This document shows positions 38,746 to 56,866 of a DNA stretch of 64,000 nt, one piece after another. The notes below the pieces were generated by a model, which saw only the letters and a list, made by a program, of their open reading frames with translations, was not told the DNA's origin and did no database searches. The translations under genes were made by a program, and so were the position numbers. The DNA comes from Gelria sp. Kuro-4 (GTDB lineage Bacteria; Bacillota; DTU030; DUMP01): positions 2,287,757-2,351,756 of the forward strand of contig NZ_AP024619.1 in the NCBI RefSeq assembly GCF_019668485.1. Direction: 5' to 3'. Every line of letters begins with the position of its first letter. The first letter of the stretch is position 1.

Positions 38746-39516
38746 CTATTTCTTATGCGGCCGCGGGTGGCTAGAGGCCACCGCCACCGTGGCTACATAA
38801 ACCGCCCGGGCACCGGCAGCGCGAAGGGCCCGGCTTGCCGCTTCCACTGTTGCCCCCGTAGTATATATATCGTCCACCAACAGGATTTCTTTACCATACG
38901 CCCCTGCGGTGGCGGCAAAGGCGCCGGCTACGTTCGCCTCGCGTTCCGCGGCCGTAAGGTCGGACTGCGGGCGCGTCGCCCTCGTCCTGCGGAGCAGCCC
39001 CGGCGCCAGGGGCCAGCCCTTCGCCCGGGCCACCCGGCGCGCCAACAGCTCCGCCTGGTTGAAGCCCCGCTCCCTGAGCCGCGCGGCATCGAGCGGCACC
39101 GGTACCACCAGCGGCGCGTCCGGCACCCCGCGCGCCGCTTCCAGCCGCGCCAGCACCAGTGCCCCGAGAAAGGGAGCCAGGCGCGTCTCACGCCCGTACT
39201 TAAAGCGGTGCAGGCAGGCCCGCAGCGGGCCGCGGTACAGGGCCGCCCCCCAGGCACGCGCGAAGGCGCGTTCCTCCTGCCGGCAGCGCGCGCAGAGCCC
39301 GCTGTGGGTAAGCGGCCGGCCACAGCGTGCACAGCACGGCTCAGATACCAGCGCTATTTCCGCGCGGCAGCGGTGGCAAAGCAGGGTTTCCCCCCGGGCC
39401 AGCGCGGCACCGCAGCCGGCGCAGGTGGTAGGCGGCGGGAAAAGGAGATCGAGGAGCGCCCGGCCAAGAGGCGCCAGGCCGGTCCGGCCCGGGGCTGAAC
39501 CTTCGCCCTTTTTCAT
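38746..39516 (-). CDS. comF: ComF family phosphoribosyltransferase-like protein
   Basis: 256 residues from the ATG at 39516; a longer frame to 39699 lies over the upstream gene. N-terminal zinc fingers CAGCGAALARGETLLCHRC and CCARCGRPLTHSGLCARC, then FKYGRE, the Lys-Arg rich RERGFNQAELLAR and the PRPP-binding ILLVDDIYTTGATVEAA. ComF is a cytoplasmic DNA-uptake factor. It overlaps the diguanylate cyclase stop by 4 nt, so the two are coupled. Confidence 0.95.
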   Translation of the reverse strand: MKKGEGSAPGRTGLAPLGRALLDLLFPPPTTCAGCGAALARGETLLCHRCRAEIALVSEPCCARCGRPLTHSGLCARCRQEERAFARAWGAALYRGPLRACLHRFKYGRETRLAPFLGALVLARLEAARGVPDAPLVVPVPLDAARLRERGFNQAELLARRVARAKGWPLAPGLLRRTRATRPQSDLTAAEREANVAGAFAATAGAYGKEILLVDDIYTTGATVEAASRALRAAGARAVYVATVAVASSHPRPHKK

Positions 39517-41186
39517 GCGCTGCCTCCGTCCCGCGGCCCGGCCGCAGCTGCCGGGGGCAGCTGGGCGCAGGTGAGCGCGCGGTCCCCGCCCTGGCGTTTG
39601 GCGTAGTACATGGCCCGGTCTGCCGCCGCCAGGAGCTCCCCCGCCTCTTCTCCCTGCTGCGGGTAGGCGGCGATGCCGATGCTGGTGGTAACCTGGCAAG
39701 GCTCCTCCTGGGTGGCTTCCCGCACTGCCCGCCGCACCCGTTCCGCCACCTGGTACGCCTCGAGCGGCCCGGCCTCCGGCAGGACAATGGCCAGCTCATC
39801 GCCCCCGTACCTGCCCACCACATCGATGCTGCGCACGCTGGAGGCGATGCAGGCGGCGATGCGCTTGAGCACGGCGTCTCCCGCCGGGTGCCCACACGCG
39901 TCGTTGACCGCCTTAAAGTTGTCCAAGTCCACCATGAGCACGCAGAGCTTGGTGCCGTAACGGCGGCACCGCGCCAGCTCGCCGGTGAGCGCCTCCACCA
40001 GGGCCCGCCGGTTGTACACCCCGGTTAGGGGATCCAGGCGGGCCAGCGCCGCCACCTCGCTGTAAAGGCGCGCGTTCTCCAAGGCACTCGCCGCCTGCCC
40101 GCCCAGGATGGCCAGGAACTGCACCTCGTGCGGGCTGAACGGTGGTTTCTCACGCTCCAGCGCCAGCACGCCCACCAGCCGCTCGCCGGCGAGGAGCGGC
40201 AGGGCCAGCCGGCAGCCGCTGCCCGCCCCACCTTTCTCTGCCGCGCCGGCGGACGCCAGCTCCGCGTGGTGCGTTACGCCCACCCGCCCCACCAGCCCCT
40301 GCCCCAGGGGCACCGCGCAGTGACGCTGGAGGTCGGTTACCGCTCCTTCGCTGGCTGCCGGGATGAGGGTTTCTTCATCCACCAGGTACACCAGCCCCCC
40401 GTCGTAGCGCACCAGGCGCCGGGCCTGGGTCAGAATCTCGTTTAAGGTGGTACTGAGATCGATGCTGGTGCCCACACTGCTGGTGGCGGTGTACAGAGCG
40501 ACAATCTCTTCGTTGGCCGCCCGCACCCGCGCATAGAGCTGCCAGATGTAACTTAAAGTAAGGAGCGGGATGGCCGCCACTACCAGGGGCGTCAAGCCCA
40601 GGAGCTGGTATACCTGCGCCAGGAACACTCCGGTAGGCAGCGAAAGCAGCGTACCGAGAAAATCCCAACCCACCAGGAGCCGGTTTTCCGCCAGCGCCGC
40701 CGTGCCCCGCTCCAGGACGAGGGCCACCCCTACCAGGACGTTGTTGGCCAGGAAATAACTCACAACAAAGGCCGCCTGGGGCAAGAGAAACGCCAGAGAA
40801 CTCCCACCCGGCGTCCCGCCCAAAAAGTGATAGGGCACGGCAGCGGCCAGGGCGGCCAGCACTGCCTGGGCAGAATTGAAGGCGCTGTCGAGCGACAGCC
40901 GGCGTTCCGCCACATCAGCCAAAAGCTGCCCGGCCGCCGCCACCCCTAGAGCGGCCGGCACCCCTTGGCAAAGGAGCGCGGCCAGCACCACACCGGAACC
41001 CAGGCTGAACGAAACCGAGCCGCTCGGTACCCGGGTGAGCTCCGTCCCCACCGCCAGGGCGCAAAAAAACAAAAAGAGCGCCAGGGACCCTCGGCCCTGG
41101 CCGCTGCCGATGAGCGCCAGGAACGCGGCGCCGAGCAGAATAATAAACCAGCGATAAAGGGTAAGGCTGCGGTTTCCTCTCTCCAC
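39513..41186 (-). CDS. Membrane GAF-GGDEF diguanylate cyclase
   Basis: 557 residues. About seven hydrophobic segments in the first 215 residues (WFIILLGAAFLALIG; LALFLFFCALAVG; LAFLLPQAAFVVSYFLANNVLV; LTPLVVAAIPLLTLSYI), a GAF domain (about 235-385), then the GGDEF domain DPLTGVYNRRALVEALTGEL with active-site RYGGDELAIVLPEAG. An intact GGDEL loop implies c-di-GMP synthesis. No RxxD product-inhibition site is obvious directly before it. It is encoded upstream of comF and close to flagellar genes and two HD-GYP proteins. Confidence 0.92.
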   Translation of the reverse strand: MERGNRSLTLYRWFIILLGAAFLALIGSGQGRGSLALFLFFCALAVGTELTRVPSGSVSFSLGSGVVLAALLCQGVPAALGVAAAGQLLADVAERRLSLDSAFNSAQAVLAALAAAVPYHFLGGTPGGSSLAFLLPQAAFVVSYFLANNVLVGVALVLERGTAALAENRLLVGWDFLGTLLSLPTGVFLAQVYQLLGLTPLVVAAIPLLTLSYIWQLYARVRAANEEIVALYTATSSVGTSIDLSTTLNEILTQARRLVRYDGGLVYLVDEETLIPAASEGAVTDLQRHCAVPLGQGLVGRVGVTHHAELASAGAAEKGGAGSGCRLALPLLAGERLVGVLALEREKPPFSPHEVQFLAILGGQAASALENARLYSEVAALARLDPLTGVYNRRALVEALTGELARCRRYGTKLCVLMVDLDNFKAVNDACGHPAGDAVLKRIAACIASSVRSIDVVGRYGGDELAIVLPEAGPLEAYQVAERVRRAVREATQEEPCQVTTSIGIAAYPQQGEEAGELLAAADRAMYYAKRQGGDRALTCAQLPPAAAAGPRDGGSA

Positions 41187-46780: not shown

Positions 46781-47473
46781 TCACCACGTGCAAAAATGCA
46801 AGAAACAGTGAGAAGTTGATACCTGACCCCGAAGGCTGAGGTGGACGCTGTCGTGCTCCAGGAGGGCTTTGAGGGCCGAGCGCGTGAGGCCGGCGACGGG
46901 GTTGTCGTTCGGCCCCGCCAGGGCCGCCAGGAAGGCCTCGACCACCCGGGGGTCGAACTGCGTGCCTGCACAGGCCGTAAGCTCCCGCGCCGAGGCCTCT
47001 GCTGTATAGGCACGCCGGTAGGGACGGTCGGTGGTCATGGCGTCGAAGGCATCGGCCACGCTGATGATGCGCGCCCCCAGGGGAATCGCCTCTCCGGCCA
47101 CGCCGTCCGGGTAACCCCGCCCGTTGTACCACTCATGATGACTGCGCACCAAGGGCGCCAGGTGCGCCAGCGCCGTCACCCTCTTCACCACGCTCTCACC
47201 CAGCAGCGGGTGCTCTTTTACCTGTTCATATTCTTTTTCGGTCAAGCGTCCGGGTTTTTTGAGTATGCGCGGCGGAATTCCCACTTTGCCGACATCGTGC
47301 AGCAGCGCCGCCTGTTCTATGTACTCCAGTTCCTTTACACTCAGCCGGAGGCGCCTGCCGGTCGCTACCGCGTACCCGGCGACGCGCAGGCAGTGAGAGT
47401 GAACCTCCTGATCCTGAATCTCCATTACCGCAGCGATGGCTAGAACCAGTGGAACAGGACTTGCCTTTGCCAA
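46781..47473 (-). CDS. HD-GYP cyclic-di-GMP phosphodiesterase
   Basis: 230 residues from a TTG at 47473 with GAGGAGGAAAGG upstream. The open frame to 47743 runs through the riboswitch and is not coding. HD-GYP core: HSHCLRVAGYAVATGRRLRL, LLHDVGKVGIPPRILKKPGRL, HPLLGESVVKRV, SHHEWYNGRGYPDGVAGEAIPLGARII, ADAFDAMTTDRPYRRA. All metal ligands and the GYP loop are intact, so hydrolysis of c-di-GMP is expected. The last 16 codons (RGQVSTSHCFLHFCTW) come from a family A repeat, so the natural C-terminus seems to have been replaced. Confidence 0.92.
   Translation of the reverse strand: MAKASPVPLVLAIAAVMEIQDQEVHSHCLRVAGYAVATGRRLRLSVKELEYIEQAALLHDVGKVGIPPRILKKPGRLTEKEYEQVKEHPLLGESVVKRVTALAHLAPLVRSHHEWYNGRGYPDGVAGEAIPLGARIISVADAFDAMTTDRPYRRAYTAEASARELTACAGTQFDPRVVEAFLAALAGPNDNPVAGLTRSALKALLEHDSVHLSLRGQVSTSHCFLHFCTW
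46811..46830 (-). repeat. Dispersed repeat family A, copy 5, inside the HD-GYP 3' end
   Basis: Minus strand GGGGTCAGGTATCAACTTCT, read in frame as RGQVSTS at the C-terminus of the HD-GYP protein. Confidence 0.8.
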
Positions 47474-47519
47474 TTCCTTTCCTCCTCGTCTGCCCGCCCG
47501 GCTAAAACCGGATGTGCCT

Positions 47520-47600
47520 TCGGCAGCCTGGCGATCGTAGCCGCGTGGCTTTAGACCCATGGCTTTGCGCCGCCACCTTTCGGTGACTTTGCCGTTTCGG
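47520..47600 (-). ncRNA. Cyclic-di-GMP-I (GEMM) riboswitch upstream of the HD-GYP gene
   Basis: On the minus strand the element has, in order: GGCAAAGTCACCGAAAGGTG (P1b/P2 with a GAAA tetraloop), GCGGCGCAAAGCCATGGGTC with the hallmark GCAAAGCC, TAAAGCC, a P3 stem, then GGCTACGATCGCCAGGCTGC CGA. These match the consensus of the class I aptamer (GGCAAACC-GAAA-GGGACGCAAAGCC...GGTTGCCGA). The aptamer ends about 45 nt before the HD-GYP ribosome site. No terminator hairpin with a T tract is obvious, so control may be translational. Confidence 0.85.
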
Positions 47601-47744
47601 GCGTTTAGTGACACTATGTAAGAGCATTCGACAACCTGCGTCCATTTCCTTCCATCAGGCGTACTAATTTGATAAGACCTTGATTCCGCGTTGATCAGGC
47701 CCGGCGGCAGCCAGGGCGGACTGTCTGGCCCCGCCGGTTGCACT

Positions 47745-47894
47745 CTACGCCCGCAGCGAACTGATGGTCTGCGCCAGCTCGGCGATGCTTTTGGTTAGTT
47801 CATCCAGCTTGCCTTCCATACGCACCAGGAGGTAGATGGACACCACCACCGGAAAGCCCAGGTTGGCAATCTGGCTGAAGACCGTCTGCTCCAC
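47745..47894 (-). CDS. yvrJ: YvrJ family small membrane protein
   Basis: 49 residues from a GTG at 47894, seven bases after GGAGGTG. VEQTVFSQIANLGFPVVVSI YLLVRMEGKLDELTKSIAEL is the YvrJ family: one TM helix followed by a short amphipathic helix. In Bacillus it lies at the sigma-O (YvrI) locus. Here it ends a run of sigma factor, DUF1659, DUF2922 and YvrJ genes. Confidence 0.85.
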   Translation of the reverse strand: MEQTVFSQIANLGFPVVVSIYLLVRMEGKLDELTKSIAELAQTISSLRA

Positions 47895-47913
47895 GCTGCA
47901 ACACCTCCGCGGC

Positions 47914-48132
47914 CTAAGCCACGGTAAACTCGCTCACGTCGCGGCTTACCAGCCGGGCCGTCGCCGCCGCCACCAGCTCGCCACCGCTGCCGGCGAAGAT
48001 GTTCTTTTGGATGATGGTCTGCATAACCTGCGCCACCTCCGCGTCGGTGAGATCGTCGCGCGGTGCGGCCAGGGACAGGGTGGTGGTGCGCCCGGCTGCG
48101 TTCTTAAAGACCAGGCTCAAGGTTTTCTCCAC
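47914..48132 (-). CDS. DUF2922 family protein
   Basis: 72 residues from the GTG at 48132, five bases after GGAGGTGA. KTLSLVFKNAAGRTTTLSLA APRDDLTDAEVAQVMQTIIQKNIFAGSGGELVAAATARLV matches DUF2922. It is a predicted small alpha/beta protein with no known function, nearly always beside DUF1659 and YvrJ in clostridia. Confidence 0.88.
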   Translation of the reverse strand: MEKTLSLVFKNAAGRTTTLSLAAPRDDLTDAEVAQVMQTIIQKNIFAGSGGELVAAATARLVSRDVSEFTVA

Positions 48133-48176
48133 GTCCTTCACCTCCTTTGAGAAGCCGTGTCTTTACCCGGCCCGCT

Positions 48177-48404
48177 TTAGGCCACTTCGTTCAAGGCACC
48201 GGTATCGATGCGCCGCACCGCCACCAGCGGGTAGATCTGCAGGCCCGCCAGCGCCTGCGCAACGTCGAAAACATCCTGGTCGGCGGCATCGGCCTTCACG
48301 TTGGCGAAGGACTTGGCCCGCACCACGGGTTTGCCGGCTTCGTCCGTTCCCGTCTGCAGCGAAAGCTGTAGGCGGGCGCCCTCCGGGACTCGCTGCACCG
48401 CCAT
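48177..48404 (-). CDS. DUF1659 family protein
   Basis: 75 residues from the ATG at 48404, after AAGGAGGTGA. RLQLSLQTGTDEAGKPVVRA KSFANVKADAADQDVFDVAQALAGLQIYPLVAVRRIDTGAL is typical DUF1659. No known function. Encoded 45 nt upstream of DUF2922. Confidence 0.88.
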   Translation of the reverse strand: MAVQRVPEGARLQLSLQTGTDEAGKPVVRAKSFANVKADAADQDVFDVAQALAGLQIYPLVAVRRIDTGALNEVA

Positions 48405-48458
48405 CCGCGTCACCTCCTTCCGTCCGCCTTCGCCTATAGACTGACGGCGGGAGTACGA

Positions 48459-49043
48459 TTAGACGCGGCCGGCCAAAAGTTTTTTCACGCGCGCGGTGCC
48501 GCGGGCGGCAATCCCTTTGGCGCTCGAGGGCGCAATCCCCAGCGCCGCCGCCACCTGGAGGAAAGTGGCTCCCCCAGCGCGGGCGCTGAGCACCTGGCGC
48601 TGCCGGGGTGTGAGCCGGTCCCAGGCCGTACGCAGGGCGGCGCGCGCGCTGGCCGCAATGGCGCAGTCCTCGGGGCCGGGGGCCGGATCTTCCAGGAGAT
48701 CGACCGGGCTGAGGCCGCCCGCTCCGGCTTCGTCCAAAGTAGCCTCCTCCCGGCTCCGGCCCCTTTTGAGGCGCCGGGCCGCCGCCTGCACGGCCCAGTA
48801 CACCCGGCGCTTGGCATACCAGGCAAACGGCGCTCCCCCCGCCGGGCGGAACGCGCGAACGGCCAGCACCAAGGCCAGGTTACCCTCCTGGGCCAGGTCT
48901 TCGGCATCGTCCGGCGTCGGGGCCAGGCGCCGCGCCGCCGCCCACACCAGCGGCTGGAAACGGCCCACCAACGCCGCCAGCGCCGCCGGCTCCCCCCTTT
49001 GCGCCGCCCGCACCAGGTGCTCCAGCTTTGTCTTGTCCGTCAT
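48459..49043 (-). CDS. Sigma-70 family factor (YvrI/sigma-O-like or SigH-like)
   Basis: 194 residues. Region 2: VRAAQRGEPAALAALVGRFQ PLVWAAARRLAPTPDDAEDLAQEGNLALVLAVRAF ... APFAWYAKRRVYWAVQAAARR. Region 4: WDRLTPRQRQVLSARAGGATFLQVAAALGIAPSSAKGIAARGTARVKK. It is the first gene of the run with DUF1659, DUF2922 and YvrJ, implying a small dedicated regulon. The function of the group is unknown. Confidence 0.85.
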   Translation of the reverse strand: MTDKTKLEHLVRAAQRGEPAALAALVGRFQPLVWAAARRLAPTPDDAEDLAQEGNLALVLAVRAFRPAGGAPFAWYAKRRVYWAVQAAARRLKRGRSREEATLDEAGAGGLSPVDLLEDPAPGPEDCAIAASARAALRTAWDRLTPRQRQVLSARAGGATFLQVAAALGIAPSSAKGIAARGTARVKKLLAGRV

Positions 49044-50162: not shown

Positions 50163-50816
50163 CTAGTTGATATCCACCAACCCGCGGCGAATGGCGTAGA
50201 GCGCCGCCTCGGTACGATCGTCCACTCCGATCTTGCGGAAGATGCTGGTAACGTGGTTTTTCACGGTCTTTTCACTGATGGCCAGGGCGGTGCCGATCTC
50301 CTTGTTGCTCTGCCCGTGGGCGATGAGGCGCAGCACCTCCTGCTCGCGGGCCGTAAGCCCGTCCACCGTGTCCTCCTCCTGCCCGCTGCTCAGGCGCGTA
50401 AACTCTCCCAGGAGTTTTTTCGCGGCCGGCGGCGAGATGTACGAATTGCCATCTTTCACCGCCCGGATGGCGCTCACCAGCCCCCCCGGTTCCACGTCCT
50501 TGAGGACGTAGCCTTCCGCCCCGGCACGCACCATCTCCAGCAGGTAGTCGCGGTCGTCGTGAATGGTGAGCGCCACCACGCCTGTGCCCGGGTATTTTTC
50601 CTTGATCTCCCGGGTAGCCTGCACGCCGCTTACGTCCGGCAGGTCCAGGTCCATCAGCACCACATCCGGGCGCACGCTCCCCACCGCGGCTACTGCATCC
50701 TTGGCGGTACCCGCTTCCCCGACGATCTCGATGTCCTCTTCAAGCTCCACTATCTTCTTAATACCGCTGCGCACCAGCGGGTGGTCGTCAACCACCAGCA
50801 CCCGTATTTTCCCCAC
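50163..50816 (-). CDS. degU: NarL/LuxR-family response regulator, DegU-like
   Basis: 217 residues. Receiver IRVLVVDDHPLVRSGIKKIV with phospho-Asp in DVVLMDLDLPDVSG. LuxR-type HTH DGLTAREQEVLRLIAHGQSNKEIGTALAISEKTVKNHVTSIFRKIGVDDRTEAALYAI. The kinase partner is encoded two genes upstream. In Bacillus this pair governs exoenzymes, motility and competence. Confidence 0.92.
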   Translation of the reverse strand: MGKIRVLVVDDHPLVRSGIKKIVELEEDIEIVGEAGTAKDAVAAVGSVRPDVVLMDLDLPDVSGVQATREIKEKYPGTGVVALTIHDDRDYLLEMVRAGAEGYVLKDVEPGGLVSAIRAVKDGNSYISPPAAKKLLGEFTRLSSGQEEDTVDGLTAREQEVLRLIAHGQSNKEIGTALAISEKTVKNHVTSIFRKIGVDDRTEAALYAIRRGLVDIN

Positions 50817-50886: not shown

Positions 50887-51792
50887 TTACTTCTCTGCCA
50901 GGACCTTTGACCCGGCGGGCCGGCTTGGGGCCGGTGCCTGGGCAAAGACCACCGCCGCCAGCACCAGGGCCATGCCGGCGGTCTGCAAGAGGTCCAGCCG
51001 CTCGCCCAGGAGAACCAGCCCCAGAATCACGCCCACCACCGGTTCCACGCTGGCCACCACCGCCGCCCGGCCCACCTCCACCAGCCCCAGACCCGTGGTG
51101 TACGCCACCCAAGGCACCAGGCTCCCCCAGAGGCCCAAAGACAGGGCCGGACCCCAGAAGGCCGGTCCGTGCGCATGTTGCACCAGGGCCAGCGGCCGGT
51201 GAAGCAGCGTCAAGAACAAGGTGCCGAACAGGGTGCAGTACAAAACCGTGGTTTCGGCCGGATAGCGCGCGCGGGCCTTTTTGCCGAAGATGCCGTACAA
51301 GCCGTAGGTGACGCCTGCACCGAGGCCGGCCAGCACCCCTGCAAGGTTGAGCCGGAGCGCCGTCAGGTTGTAGCCGCGCGCCACCAAAAAACACCCGGCC
51401 AGGGAAAGAGCCACAGCGAACGCCTTACCCGGGCTGAGAGGCTCGGCGAAGGCCAGGCGGGCAAAGAGCGTGGCAAAGGCAGGCGCGGTATAAAGGAGGA
51501 TAACGGCCGTGGTAACCCCTGCCTTATCGACGGCCGTGAAATAGAGGATGTTATAAAGTGCACCGTTAACCAGGCCGAAGGCGGCAAAAAGTTTAAGGTC
51601 TTCCCGGGCCAGGCGCGGCCAGCCCCCCTGCCGGCAAAGGACCAGGGGAACCAGTCCCAGCAGCGACACCACCCCCCGCAGCCAGGAAACATCGAGCGGG
51701 CTCAAGCCCAGGTCAAGCAACCGGCGGGCGAAGACGCCGATGCTTCCCCAAGCCGTCCCGGCGAGGAGAATCCAAGCGTAGCCCTTATTCAC
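50887..51792 (-). CDS. EamA (DMT superfamily) transporter
   Basis: 301 residues with about ten hydrophobic helices and two EamA repeats: YAWILLAGTAWGSIGVFARR ... VTTAVILLYTAPAFATLFARLAF and LGAGVTYGLYGIFGKKAR ... VEPVVGVILGLVLLGERLDLLQTAGMALVLAAV. Members export amino acids or metabolites. The gene overlaps the degS stop by 8 nt and thus lies inside the degS-degU unit. Confidence 0.9.
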   Translation of the reverse strand: MNKGYAWILLAGTAWGSIGVFARRLLDLGLSPLDVSWLRGVVSLLGLVPLVLCRQGGWPRLAREDLKLFAAFGLVNGALYNILYFTAVDKAGVTTAVILLYTAPAFATLFARLAFAEPLSPGKAFAVALSLAGCFLVARGYNLTALRLNLAGVLAGLGAGVTYGLYGIFGKKARARYPAETTVLYCTLFGTLFLTLLHRPLALVQHAHGPAFWGPALSLGLWGSLVPWVAYTTGLGLVEVGRAAVVASVEPVVGVILGLVLLGERLDLLQTAGMALVLAAVVFAQAPAPSRPAGSKVLAEK

Positions 51793-52963
51793 CCGCTTTA
51801 CCCCCTTCGGCCGCCGCCTCCCCCAACGGCAGGTGCAGCTCCACGCGCGTGCCCCTGCCGGGGGTGCTCTTTATGCGCAGGGCAGCGCCGATGAGCTCCG
51901 CCCGCTCCCGCATCCCCAAAAGCCCCAGGTGCTCGCCGCCAGCGGCTTTCGCCACCCCCTTCTCCGGCACAAAGCCCTTGCCGTTGTCCACCACCCGCAC
52001 GGCCAGGAAGGCCGGGTTGAACTCGATCCGCACCTGCGCCTGGGTCGCCTCGGCGTGCTTGACCACGTTGTTCAGGGCCTCCTGGATAATGCGAAAGACG
52101 CAGCTCAACATGGTGGCTTCCAGCTGCTGCTCTTCGCCGTGCACCGTCACGGTTATGCTGAGGCCCGTACGCTCCTCAACCTGGACGGCCAGATTGTCCA
52201 CCGCCGCCTTAAGCCCCAGGTTGTCCAAGGCAGGTGGCCGCAGGTTAAAGATGACATCGCGCGTCTCCCGGAGACCGCTGCGGATGATCTTTTCCACCGT
52301 TTCCAGCTCGCTCCGCGCCTTGTCGATATCCTCTTCCAGCAGGCGCTGCGTCACCTGTAGTTCGAGCAGGGCGCTGGCCAGCTGCTGCGCCAGGCCGTCG
52401 TGCAGATCGCGGGCCACCCGCCGCCGCTCCTCTTCCTGGGCCTGAATAACCCGCACGGCGATTTCGCGTTTCTCCTGCACCGTCGCCAGGGTTTGGGAGA
52501 GCTGCTGGATGTTGCCGCTCAGGTAGTCGATGGCCACGCCCACCTGGGCCGTCAACGCCTCCGAGCGGCTGAGCAGGCGGGTTACGTTGCGCAGGTTGCG
52601 CTCGATCTCATCGCGCTGGGCCCGCAGGGCCTTTTCTTTTTCCGTGAGCAAAATAAGGCGCACCTGGACATCGCGGGCGCGCTCGTAGGCGCGGCGGATG
52701 TCCTCCTCGCCGTACTGGCTGAAGTCGCGGCTCACCCGCATCAGCTCCATGCGGGAGCGCTGTTCTTCACTCCGGGCGGCGTCCACCGCTTCAATAACGT
52801 CCAGGGTTTCGCCCTTGACCCGTTCCAGCTCCCGCTTCAGCCGGGCCACCTCGGCCCGCGCCTCGTCGGCGATGGCGCTGATCTGTTTCTGGCTTTCCTT
52901 GATGGTATCGACGGTCTGGTGGAGAATCTCCTCCAGGCGGGCCAGGTCGGCGTTAACCTCCAT
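51785..52963 (-). CDS. degS: Cytoplasmic sensor histidine kinase, DegS-like
   Basis: 392 residues. A long coiled-coil N-terminal half (ADEARAEVARLKRELERVKG; ERNLRNVTRLLSRSEALTAQ), then HisKA_3 VRVIQAQEEERRRVARDLHD GLAQQLASALLELQV with phospho-His, and HATPase IIQEALNNVVKHAEATQ, VVDNGKGF and GLLGMRERAELIGA. No membrane segment, as for DegS. It probably phosphorylates the DegU-like regulator at 50163-50816. Confidence 0.92.
   Translation of the reverse strand: MEVNADLARLEEILHQTVDTIKESQKQISAIADEARAEVARLKRELERVKGETLDVIEAVDAARSEEQRSRMELMRVSRDFSQYGEEDIRRAYERARDVQVRLILLTEKEKALRAQRDEIERNLRNVTRLLSRSEALTAQVGVAIDYLSGNIQQLSQTLATVQEKREIAVRVIQAQEEERRRVARDLHDGLAQQLASALLELQVTQRLLEEDIDKARSELETVEKIIRSGLRETRDVIFNLRPPALDNLGLKAAVDNLAVQVEERTGLSITVTVHGEEQQLEATMLSCVFRIIQEALNNVVKHAEATQAQVRIEFNPAFLAVRVVDNGKGFVPEKGVAKAAGGEHLGLLGMRERAELIGAALRIKSTPGRGTRVELHLPLGEAAAEGGKAGE

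Positions 52964-53058: not shown

Positions 53059-53069
<11 letters not shown>
53044..53069 (-). terminator. Terminator of metK
   Basis: Minus strand CCTCCGCTGAGCGGAGG followed by CTTTTTTC. The metK stop codon lies in the loop. Confidence 0.9.
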
Positions 53070-54252
<1,183 letters not shown>

Positions 54253-54271
54253 GAAAAGTCCTCCCTTCAAT

Positions 54272-54418
54272 CAAAAAGGCCGCCTCAATTTGGAAGCGGC
54301 CTGGGCACTCCTATCTTCCAGAATTGACATTCTGCAGGAATTGGCACATCACCAGGACACCCCCTGGCACGCTGCCGGGTTTCATCGGGCCCGTCCCTCC
54401 ACCTCTCTGGATAAGAGT
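54272..54418 (-). ncRNA. SAM-I (S-box) riboswitch with terminator, upstream of metK
   Basis: Minus strand CTCTTATCCAGAGAGGTGGA GGGACGGGCCCGATGAAACCCGGCAGC, then GTGCCA...GGTGCCAATTCC, as in S-box leaders. The expression platform is a terminator GGCCGCTTCCAAATTGAGGC GGCCTTTTTG at 54302-54272. SAM binding should favour termination. Confidence 0.95.
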
Positions 54419-54936: not shown

Positions 54937-55092
54937 CGAATATGCCCCCACTTACAGGTATTGCCTCTACTTTTCGCCCCAGCGGCGCATAGGGCCTATG
55001 CACTGCAGGTAGATATATGTATCCTTGCTGAGCATAAGGGAGCAATTGCCGCCTAGGTCCGCATAAACAGGCAAAACTGCTGTTACTTGCTT

Positions 55093-55185: not shown

Positions 55186-55893
55186 TTGGACTTCTTCTTC
55201 CAACTTTTGGCGCAGCTGGAAGACGCACTCCCAGACGTTCACCGACACTCTTTGAACACGGCTAAGCTTGCACTGAAAGCTGGTAAATATATGCGCCTGG
55301 ACGCTGCCGCCCTGGAAAGCCTGGTCACGGCGGCTTTCTTGCATGACGTGGGGAAGCTGCGGATTGCGCCGGCGGTTCTACATAAGCCCGGCCGCCTCGC
55401 TGCCGCAGAGTGGCAGGAGATGGTAAAGCACCCCCGGTACGGCCTGGAAATGCTGGCCGGTCTGCACCCGCCTGAGCGCCTGGCGGCCGGCGTGCTCTAC
55501 CACCATGAGTGGTGGAACGGCGAAGGTTACTTTGGGCTCCGCGGGGCAGGCATACCGCCGGCGGCGCGGCTCCTCGCCCTGTGTGACAGCTGGGACGCCA
55601 TGACGTCGCCCCGCGTTTACCAACCTACTAAAACCCGGCAGGAGGCACGCCAGGAACTCGAGCGGATGCGCGGCCGCCAGTTTGACCCGGCGCTGGTCCC
55701 TCTCTTTCTCCGCATGCTGCAGGAAGAGCAGTCGCGCAGCCCGGCCGAAAGTCTGAGGGACGCCAGCGAGTGGCTCGCGCGCTGTTTCCAGATGTACCGC
55801 AATTTTCACAACCCGGTGGTGTACGCAGCCAGCCTCTTGATCGACGACTTGGTGCTCTGCGATGTGGTTGCCCAATGCGCCATTACCCGTTGA
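55186..55893 (+). CDS. HD-GYP-type protein with a C-terminal segment resembling Spo0E
   Basis: 235 residues from a TTG start; the ribosome site (GAGG) is weak and the start uncertain. HD core: HRHSLNTAKLALKAGKYMRL, FLHDVGKLRIAPAVLHKPGRL, YHHEWWNGEGYFGLRGAGIPPAARLLALCDSWDAMTSPRVY. The GYP loop is GYF, but the HD metal ligands remain. The last 30 residues (MYRNFHNPVVYAASLLIDDL VLCDV) resemble the Spo0E phosphatase motif, where NxxxPxVxxxSxxLDxL is typical. That suggests a link between c-di-GMP and sporulation, a tentative call. Confidence 0.8.
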   Translation: MDFFFQLLAQLEDALPDVHRHSLNTAKLALKAGKYMRLDAAALESLVTAAFLHDVGKLRIAPAVLHKPGRLAAAEWQEMVKHPRYGLEMLAGLHPPERLAAGVLYHHEWWNGEGYFGLRGAGIPPAARLLALCDSWDAMTSPRVYQPTKTRQEARQELERMRGRQFDPALVPLFLRMLQEEQSRSPAESLRDASEWLARCFQMYRNFHNPVVYAASLLIDDLVLCDVVAQCAITR

Positions 55894-56290: not shown

Positions 56291-56866
56291 CTAGAAGAGA
56301 TAATGCGCGCTCAGCTCGCGCAGGAAGGCGCCCAGGCGCTCGCTCAGGCGAAGCTCCTCCGCGGGCGGCTTCCAGCCGTGTCGGCTGAGGTAGCGCTCCT
56401 CCACCAGGCGGGCGGCGCTCAGGTGCTCCAGAACGACGCGCCGGCGGGACAAGGCGGGTACCTCCACCCCGGAAAAGAGAACGACACGGCTCCGAAAGGG
56501 CCCTGGCTCGGCGGCGCGCACCTCCTTGACCTCGTGGTAAGAGATGTAGCCCAGGGAGGCGTCGCCACGGCACCGCGGCCGGCGCAGGCGCAGCGGCACC
56601 AGGATCAGGCGCGGGCAAAGCGGCAGCGGCACGCTGCTCGAACGCTCCAGGAGCGCGCCGTAGATGCGCCGCACCGCCACCAGGTCCACCCCGTAAAGGT
56701 GGGCCAGCTCGGTCCGCACCGCCCGGATGCGCCGCGGCTGCCAAAGCCTTTCTCCCGAACGCAGGATGATCTCGGTGCCGTCGCCGGCGCCGTCGCAATA
56801 AAGTGGCCGCAGGGCCGCCACCTCCGCCCGGACTGCTTCCAACTTCAGCTGCTCCCGCTCTCCCAC
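56291..56866 (-). CDS. Possible ComK-like competence regulator
   Basis: 191 residues from a GTG, seven bases after AAGGGAGGAG. The central stretch SSSVPLPLCPRLILVPLRLR RPRCRGDASLGYISYHEVKEV ... VVLFSGVEVPALSRRRVVLEHLSAARLV resembles the ComK fold, where a conserved Pro-rich strand, GYI/WI helix and V-x-F-x(2)-G hairpin occur. Sequence identity is low and ComK is rare in Clostridia, so this is a resemblance only. The protein is Arg-rich. A strong promoter precedes it. Confidence 0.45.
   Translation of the reverse strand: MGEREQLKLEAVRAEVAALRPLYCDGAGDGTEIILRSGERLWQPRRIRAVRTELAHLYGVDLVAVRRIYGALLERSSSVPLPLCPRLILVPLRLRRPRCRGDASLGYISYHEVKEVRAAEPGPFRSRVVLFSGVEVPALSRRRVVLEHLSAARLVEERYLSRHGWKPPAEELRLSERLGAFLRELSAHYLF

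Follow-up and report, generated by a model that had tools for sequence, protein, structure and literature searches.

The present analysis suggests that four short genes in the window, that is, the whole 64,000-nucleotide stretch of Gelria sp. Kuro-4 DNA analyzed here, are on the best reading the local copy of a widespread chromosomal cassette with the gene order [sigma]-DUF1659-DUF2922-YvrJ-(endolysin)-(ComK-like). We tentatively propose, with somewhat less than even confidence, that this cassette is a small ComK-coupled, holin-type operon that acts in competence and in which DUF1659 and DUF2922 form one complex. The more specific proposal, which we consider possible and hold with slightly less assurance, is that DUF1659 and DUF2922 are an obligate pair heading a ComK-coupled holin/endolysin operon, that this operon provides the wall-opening or export step of Clostridia-type transformation, and that in the lineage of the window it is partly under its own sigma factor. 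The window set consists of the following genes:

48459..49043, minus strand: sigma-70 factor, ECF-like (Pfam and NCBIfam matches), first gene of the set, with regions 2 and 4 and no region 3
48177..48404, minus strand: DUF1659 protein (PF07872; Pfam 1.8e-27), corrected ATG start at 48404
47914..48132, minus strand: DUF2922 protein (PF11148; Pfam 1.9e-25), corrected GTG start at 48132
47745..47894, minus strand: YvrJ (PF12841; Pfam 2.7e-20), one hydrophobic helix plus an amphipathic helix, holin-like

The three small proteins score far above the Pfam gathering cut-offs (95.4 vs. 24.1 bits for PF07872, 89 vs. 25.5 for PF11148, and 72.1 vs. 29.5 for PF12841). A good purine-rich Shine-Dalgarno sequence precedes the start codon of each of the four genes, and the DUF1659 and DUF2922 starts were corrected because those given by the ORF finder fall inside it. 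Thus, the preliminary description of the locus, as four closely spaced genes with ribosome sites encoding a sigma factor and three families of no assigned function, holds at the sequence and family level.

The grouping was said in that description to recur, gene-neighborhood statistics were called for, and co-occurrence no better than chance was named as grounds for abandoning the idea. In a survey sample of 199 genomes drawn evenly across the phylum of the window, DUF2922 was found in 103 and DUF1659 in 104, with 103 carrying both, and DUF1659 lies directly upstream, on the same strand and within 2 kb, of 124 of the 128 DUF2922 genes (median gap 61 bp). The reverse order was not seen at any of the 128. 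YvrJ lies downstream within 2 kb at 75 of them and, when linked, is always downstream. Chance co-occurrence is excluded by the 124/128 adjacency and the 103 shared genomes, and the order of the pair is constant. The literature search returned no paper on the function of DUF1659 or DUF2922, the former being mentioned once in passing; the earlier suggestion of an undescribed, regulated and partly membrane-anchored system is supported for the DUF1659/DUF2922/YvrJ group.

Several individual genomes depart from this pattern. Of the two control genomes, Thermotoga maritima has DUF1659 and DUF2922 and no YvrJ match, and Bacillus subtilis has YvrJ and no DUF1659 or DUF2922 match. Two genomes (G165 and G189; loci L061 and L072-L080) carry eight and four DUF2922 matches, mostly paired with DUF1659; almost all of these matches have a DUF3102 gene next to them and no YvrJ, which suggests a mobile or amplified variant. 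At two further loci, L046 (G005) and L139 (G027), DUF1659-DUF2922 is repeated in tandem within a few kilobases, pointing to local amplification. The record MT838210.1 (L152), named "Bacteriophage sp.," combines DUF1659 with galU- and galT-like genes and an IS transposase and looks bacterial.

Structure prediction is consistent with the two DUF proteins forming a single heteromeric unit. The paired alignment comprised 121 rows, from loci with both genes in frame, with stop codons read as glycine to give a read-through fusion. From it, AlphaFold2 predicted the 169-residue DUF1659-DUF2922 pair with a pLDDT of 92.4 and a pTM of 0.80, each protein forming one beta-beta-alpha-beta domain. A pTM well below this value would be expected from two domains of this size that were not placed relative to each other, so the model predicts a specific complex. 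When YvrJ was added in the same way, the DUF pair stayed intact, YvrJ appeared as one long helix and the pTM fell to 0.63; docking of YvrJ on the pair is therefore unsupported, and this model doubles as a specificity control. Although both proteins are predicted to share the beta-beta-alpha-beta topology, profile comparison detected no homology between DUF1659 and DUF2922. There were no credible sequence relatives of either in the PDB, no Foldseek match to the pair in the PDB, and no signal peptide in either protein. Against viral models, Foldseek matches were weak or fitted poorly overall; the weak ones (E 0.14-0.47) were to double-strand binding and histone-like p6 proteins of phages, and p6-type matches were not among the best 50 with a second model.

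The third protein of the cassette, YvrJ, is inferred from sequence resemblance, its hydrophobic helix and its genomic pairing to be a holin-type protein. Specifically, 28 of 32 YvrJ relatives match PHROG 4898 (holin); the window YvrJ did not match Pfam Holin_BhlA at E<=1. A peptidoglycan hydrolase of the Amidase_2, Peptidase_M15_3 or Amidase_3 type follows the cassette in 28 of 114 loci, from 19 families, and is commoner where YvrJ is present (25/69 loci vs. 3/45 without YvrJ, p 3e-4). These counts come from a neighborhood set of wider stretches around the 114 loci, from 48 families, in which genes were labelled by profiles grown from the loci themselves. None of 29 adjacent hydrolases has a hydrophobic, signal-peptide-like N terminus, as expected for holin-dependent endolysins. 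No hydrolase lies beside the window cassette, so that in the window genome an endolysin would act in trans, or YvrJ alone.

The window cassette lies between a ComK-like gene, metK and degS-degU on one side and comFC on the other, with a c-di-GMP riboswitch and its gene immediately downstream:

56291..56866, minus strand: ComK-like regulator (by alignment with relatives), 8.2 kb upstream of the cassette
54308-54417: SAM riboswitch, with metK
53059..54270, minus strand: metK, a syntenic marker of the locus
51785..52963, minus strand: DegS sensor kinase (Pfam DegS 4.1e-48)
50163..50816, minus strand: DegU-type response regulator (Pfam Response_reg and GerE)
47519..47603, minus strand: c-di-GMP-I riboswitch (Rfam 76.3 bits)
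46781..47473, minus strand: HD-GYP phosphodiesterase, probable TTG start at 47473
38746..39699, minus strand: comFC-type phosphoribosyltransferase (Pfam DZR_2 and Pribosyltran), a syntenic marker of the locus

The cassette occupies this metK, degS/degU and comFC context in about 20 of the 114 loci (about a sixth), the window included. The HD-GYP gene with a c-di-GMP riboswitch that had been noted as following the set is indeed there. Since the riboswitch lies between YvrJ and the likely TTG start at 47473, it would sit in the leader of the HD-GYP gene, which probably has its own control. HD-GYP and riboswitch adjoin the cassette in just two cases, the window and the single congener that carries the cassette; with this adjacency conserved only within the genus, they were rejected as part of the module. 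Counting this gene, three c-di-GMP genes ring the degSU-comF region, the others being a second HD-GYP gene (55186-55893, plus strand) and a MASE9-GAF-GGDEF gene (39513-41186, minus strand).

The link to competence comes chiefly from the ComK-like gene. A gene for a protein of ~190 aa follows the cassette within 5 kb in 38 of 114 loci, and the protein is called ComK-like because relatives match Pfam ComK (PF06338), two of them above the gathering score and 6 of 34 at E<=0.01. In the window, the protein found no match in Pfam, and hhalign gave a probability of only 49% against a sequence taken to be B. subtilis ComK; the relationship to ComK appears to be a distant one. A profile search found the ComK-like protein in 85 of the 199 genomes, and with p-values that ignore shared ancestry and are inflated by it, 82 of these 85 carry DUF2922 (44 expected, p 1e-31), the association persists in a restricted test on the 34 genomes in which the two genes are unlinked or on different contigs (p 5e-16), and at the level of taxonomic family ComK-like occurs with DUF2922 in 39 of 39 (p 1e-17). 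The two are linked within 10 kb in 48 genomes, and 41 of 49 such linked pairs have the ComK-like gene downstream on the same strand. Neighborhood alone is an unlikely cause, given the family-level result and the unlinked cases. The ComK-like gene is missing from 21 of the 103 cassette genomes, and a B. subtilis-type K-box (A4N5T4) was not enriched in the two upstream sets scanned, those of DUF1659 and of the ComK-like gene. ComEC (194/199 genomes) is too common to discriminate and adds no support, and Spo0A (175/199) is likewise too common. In the window, a short in-frame stretch at 54970-55085 (minus strand) resembles the N terminus of the ComK-like protein (KQVTAVLPVYADLGGNCSLML), has no Pfam match, and is apparently the remnant of a second copy.

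By comparison, the sigma factor accompanies few of the loci. The window protein (194 aa) combines regions 2 and 4 in one chain and lacks region 3, as in ECF-type factors; it matches Pfam Sigma70_r2 (2.9e-13), Sigma70_r4 just under the Pfam cut-off (1.4e-4), and the NCBIfam sigma70-ECF superfamily above cut-off (2.3e-19). A sigma gene lies directly upstream of the cassette in 12 of 114 loci, from 6 of 48 families, and also at the cassette of Lucifera butyrica, where Pfam confirms it, as it does further members. Of five related genomes of the same class, four have their best match to the window sigma factor (66-42% identity across the five) at the cassette locus; in the remaining genome it is found on the contig bearing the ComK-like gene. 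The sigma-bearing loci mostly share the metK/degSU/comFC context (9/12 vs. 10/102 others, p 2e-6), and none of the 12 has an adjacent hydrolase (p 0.04). No convincing shared promoter was seen upstream of the sigma gene when three relatives were compared by eye. The earlier idea of the sigma factor as the defining controller fails as a general rule: with 102 of 114 loci lacking a sigma gene directly upstream, the DUF pair does not generally depend on one. The sigma gene is not core to the cassette, and the ComK-like protein is, as judged from co-occurrence, its more widespread regulatory partner. At two other loci (L146 and L147), YvrJ genes unaccompanied by the DUF pair adjoin sigma-factor genes, as in the SigO system of B. 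subtilis.

From this linkage and composition, we infer a possible course of action. The operon would be switched on by the ComK-like protein, a role that the ECF-like sigma factor would take in some lineages. YvrJ, as a small holin, would then open the membrane enough for an endolysin, encoded by a neighboring gene in many species and in trans in the window genome, to reach the wall. The wall might be thinned locally for a transformation pilus or for DNA, or DNA or protein might be released. The DUF1659-DUF2922 complex would be cytoplasmic and could gate or accompany this wall step, or could itself be the exported cargo.

The last option, taken alone, becomes a distinct explanation in which holin and endolysin export the DUF1659-DUF2922 complex as cargo, much as Bcn5 is released, and the competence link reflects shared timing only. 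The combination of a sigma factor, a small holin-like protein and an amidase is that of Bcn5 (PMC9527704), and the DUF proteins, lacking signal peptides, stand at the operon head; we nevertheless think it unlikely, as sigma and hydrolase genes never occur together in these loci, no bacteriocin-like feature is present, and the correlation with unlinked ComK-like genes is left unexplained. That the DUF proteins are instead anti- or co-sigma proteins, with YvrJ as anchor or sensor, would fit the window, where the sigma gene lies 45-55 bp upstream in the same orientation, and the other loci so arranged. We regard this as quite unlikely given the 102 loci without such a gene and the finding that sigma genes from other families come scarcely nearer to that of the window than other sigma factors do.

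Two further readings draw on resemblance to phage proteins. A lysis cassette of phage origin, domesticated or left as a remnant and with no role in competence, would account for the PHROG holin matches of YvrJ, the existence of PHROG families for DUF1659 and DUF2922, and the endolysin-like hydrolases; yet two pattern scans of IMG/VR found no relative, tblastn found no DUF2922 match among 50,697 phage records, and the sole DUF1659 phage match is a mislabelled bacterial fragment, whereas the cassette occurs in 49 families and shows chromosomal synteny across families, about 20 loci lying among metK, degSU and comFC. This makes a phage remnant very unlikely. Of comparably low probability is a DNA-binding pair like p6 of phi29, coating or organizing DNA in competence with YvrJ as its membrane tether. 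The p6-type matches and the competence linkage favor it, but it is retained only as a rival because those viral matches are weak or fit poorly overall; the named matches were absent from the top 50 when the second model was used, TM-scores were low, the PDB search was empty, and the DUF pair is not basic by inspection. Finally, Spo0A is present in most cassette genomes, as a sporulation-linked device such as one for mother-cell lysis would predict, but its near-ubiquity in the sample does not discriminate, and five cassette genomes (G027, G042, G086, G133 and G158) lack it; a role in sporulation is highly improbable.

The competence reading has several implications. DUF1659 and DUF2922 are of undescribed function, yet about half of the species sampled in the phylum carry them. 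Their ties to a ComK-like regulator, to a holin-like protein and to wall hydrolases that lack signal peptides offer a first testable role, wall opening during DNA uptake or release. Such a role bears on competence regulation and on the passage of pilus and DNA through the thick wall of anaerobic Gram-positive bacteria. These ties also suggest that regulation of the ComK type extends far outside the Bacilli. In addition, the cassette would provide a simple marker set for naturally transformable strains among anaerobes that are hard to engineer.

Elements of this arrangement are found in several known systems. The window resembles the degSU-comF region of B. subtilis, where degS-degU also lies near comFC and flagellar genes; that region is not known to contain the DUF1659/DUF2922/YvrJ cassette. 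Competence control in streptococci is, to our knowledge, not ComK-based, and we know of no YvrJ or DUF pair described there. The likeness to the streptococcal hydrolases CbpD and LytF lies in the tie between a wall hydrolase and the competence program, LytF being reported to promote pilus extrusion (PMC13192262). In B. subtilis, yvrJ is transcribed by the two-subunit sigma factor SigO-RsoA (PMC8103513), so that in the oxdC-yvrL/yvrJ system, as would hold in the window, yvrJ and a sigma factor dedicated to it belong to one regulatory unit. There, however, the sigma factor is split into two proteins, whereas the window protein unites regions 2 and 4, and neither DUF1659 nor DUF2922 was matched in the control search of B. 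subtilis. In Clostridium perfringens, Bcn5 bacteriocins are accompanied by the sigma factor UviA, the BhlA-family holin UviB and an amidase (PMC9527704). As in the window, an ECF-like sigma gene lies near that of a one-helix, holin-like protein, and the amidase lacks a signal peptide, a feature shared with relatives of the window locus. In the window set and 11 other loci, sigma gene and YvrJ lie together in this way with the DUF pair between them. The cassette differs from UviAB in its DUF1659-DUF2922 core, its ComK-like partner, its chromosomal and widespread occurrence, a YvrJ family separate in Pfam from Holin_BhlA, and sigma and hydrolase genes that are not found together. As far as these sources show, DUF1659 and DUF2922 are absent from the UviAB, SigO-RsoA and streptococcal hydrolase systems. 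No endolysin gene adjoins the window set, nor was a gene for a bacteriocin or toxin cargo identified next to it; for this reason it falls outside the UviAB group, and it would work like a sigma/holin/endolysin module, for which UviA, UviB and the amidase of Bcn5 are the closest described arrangement.
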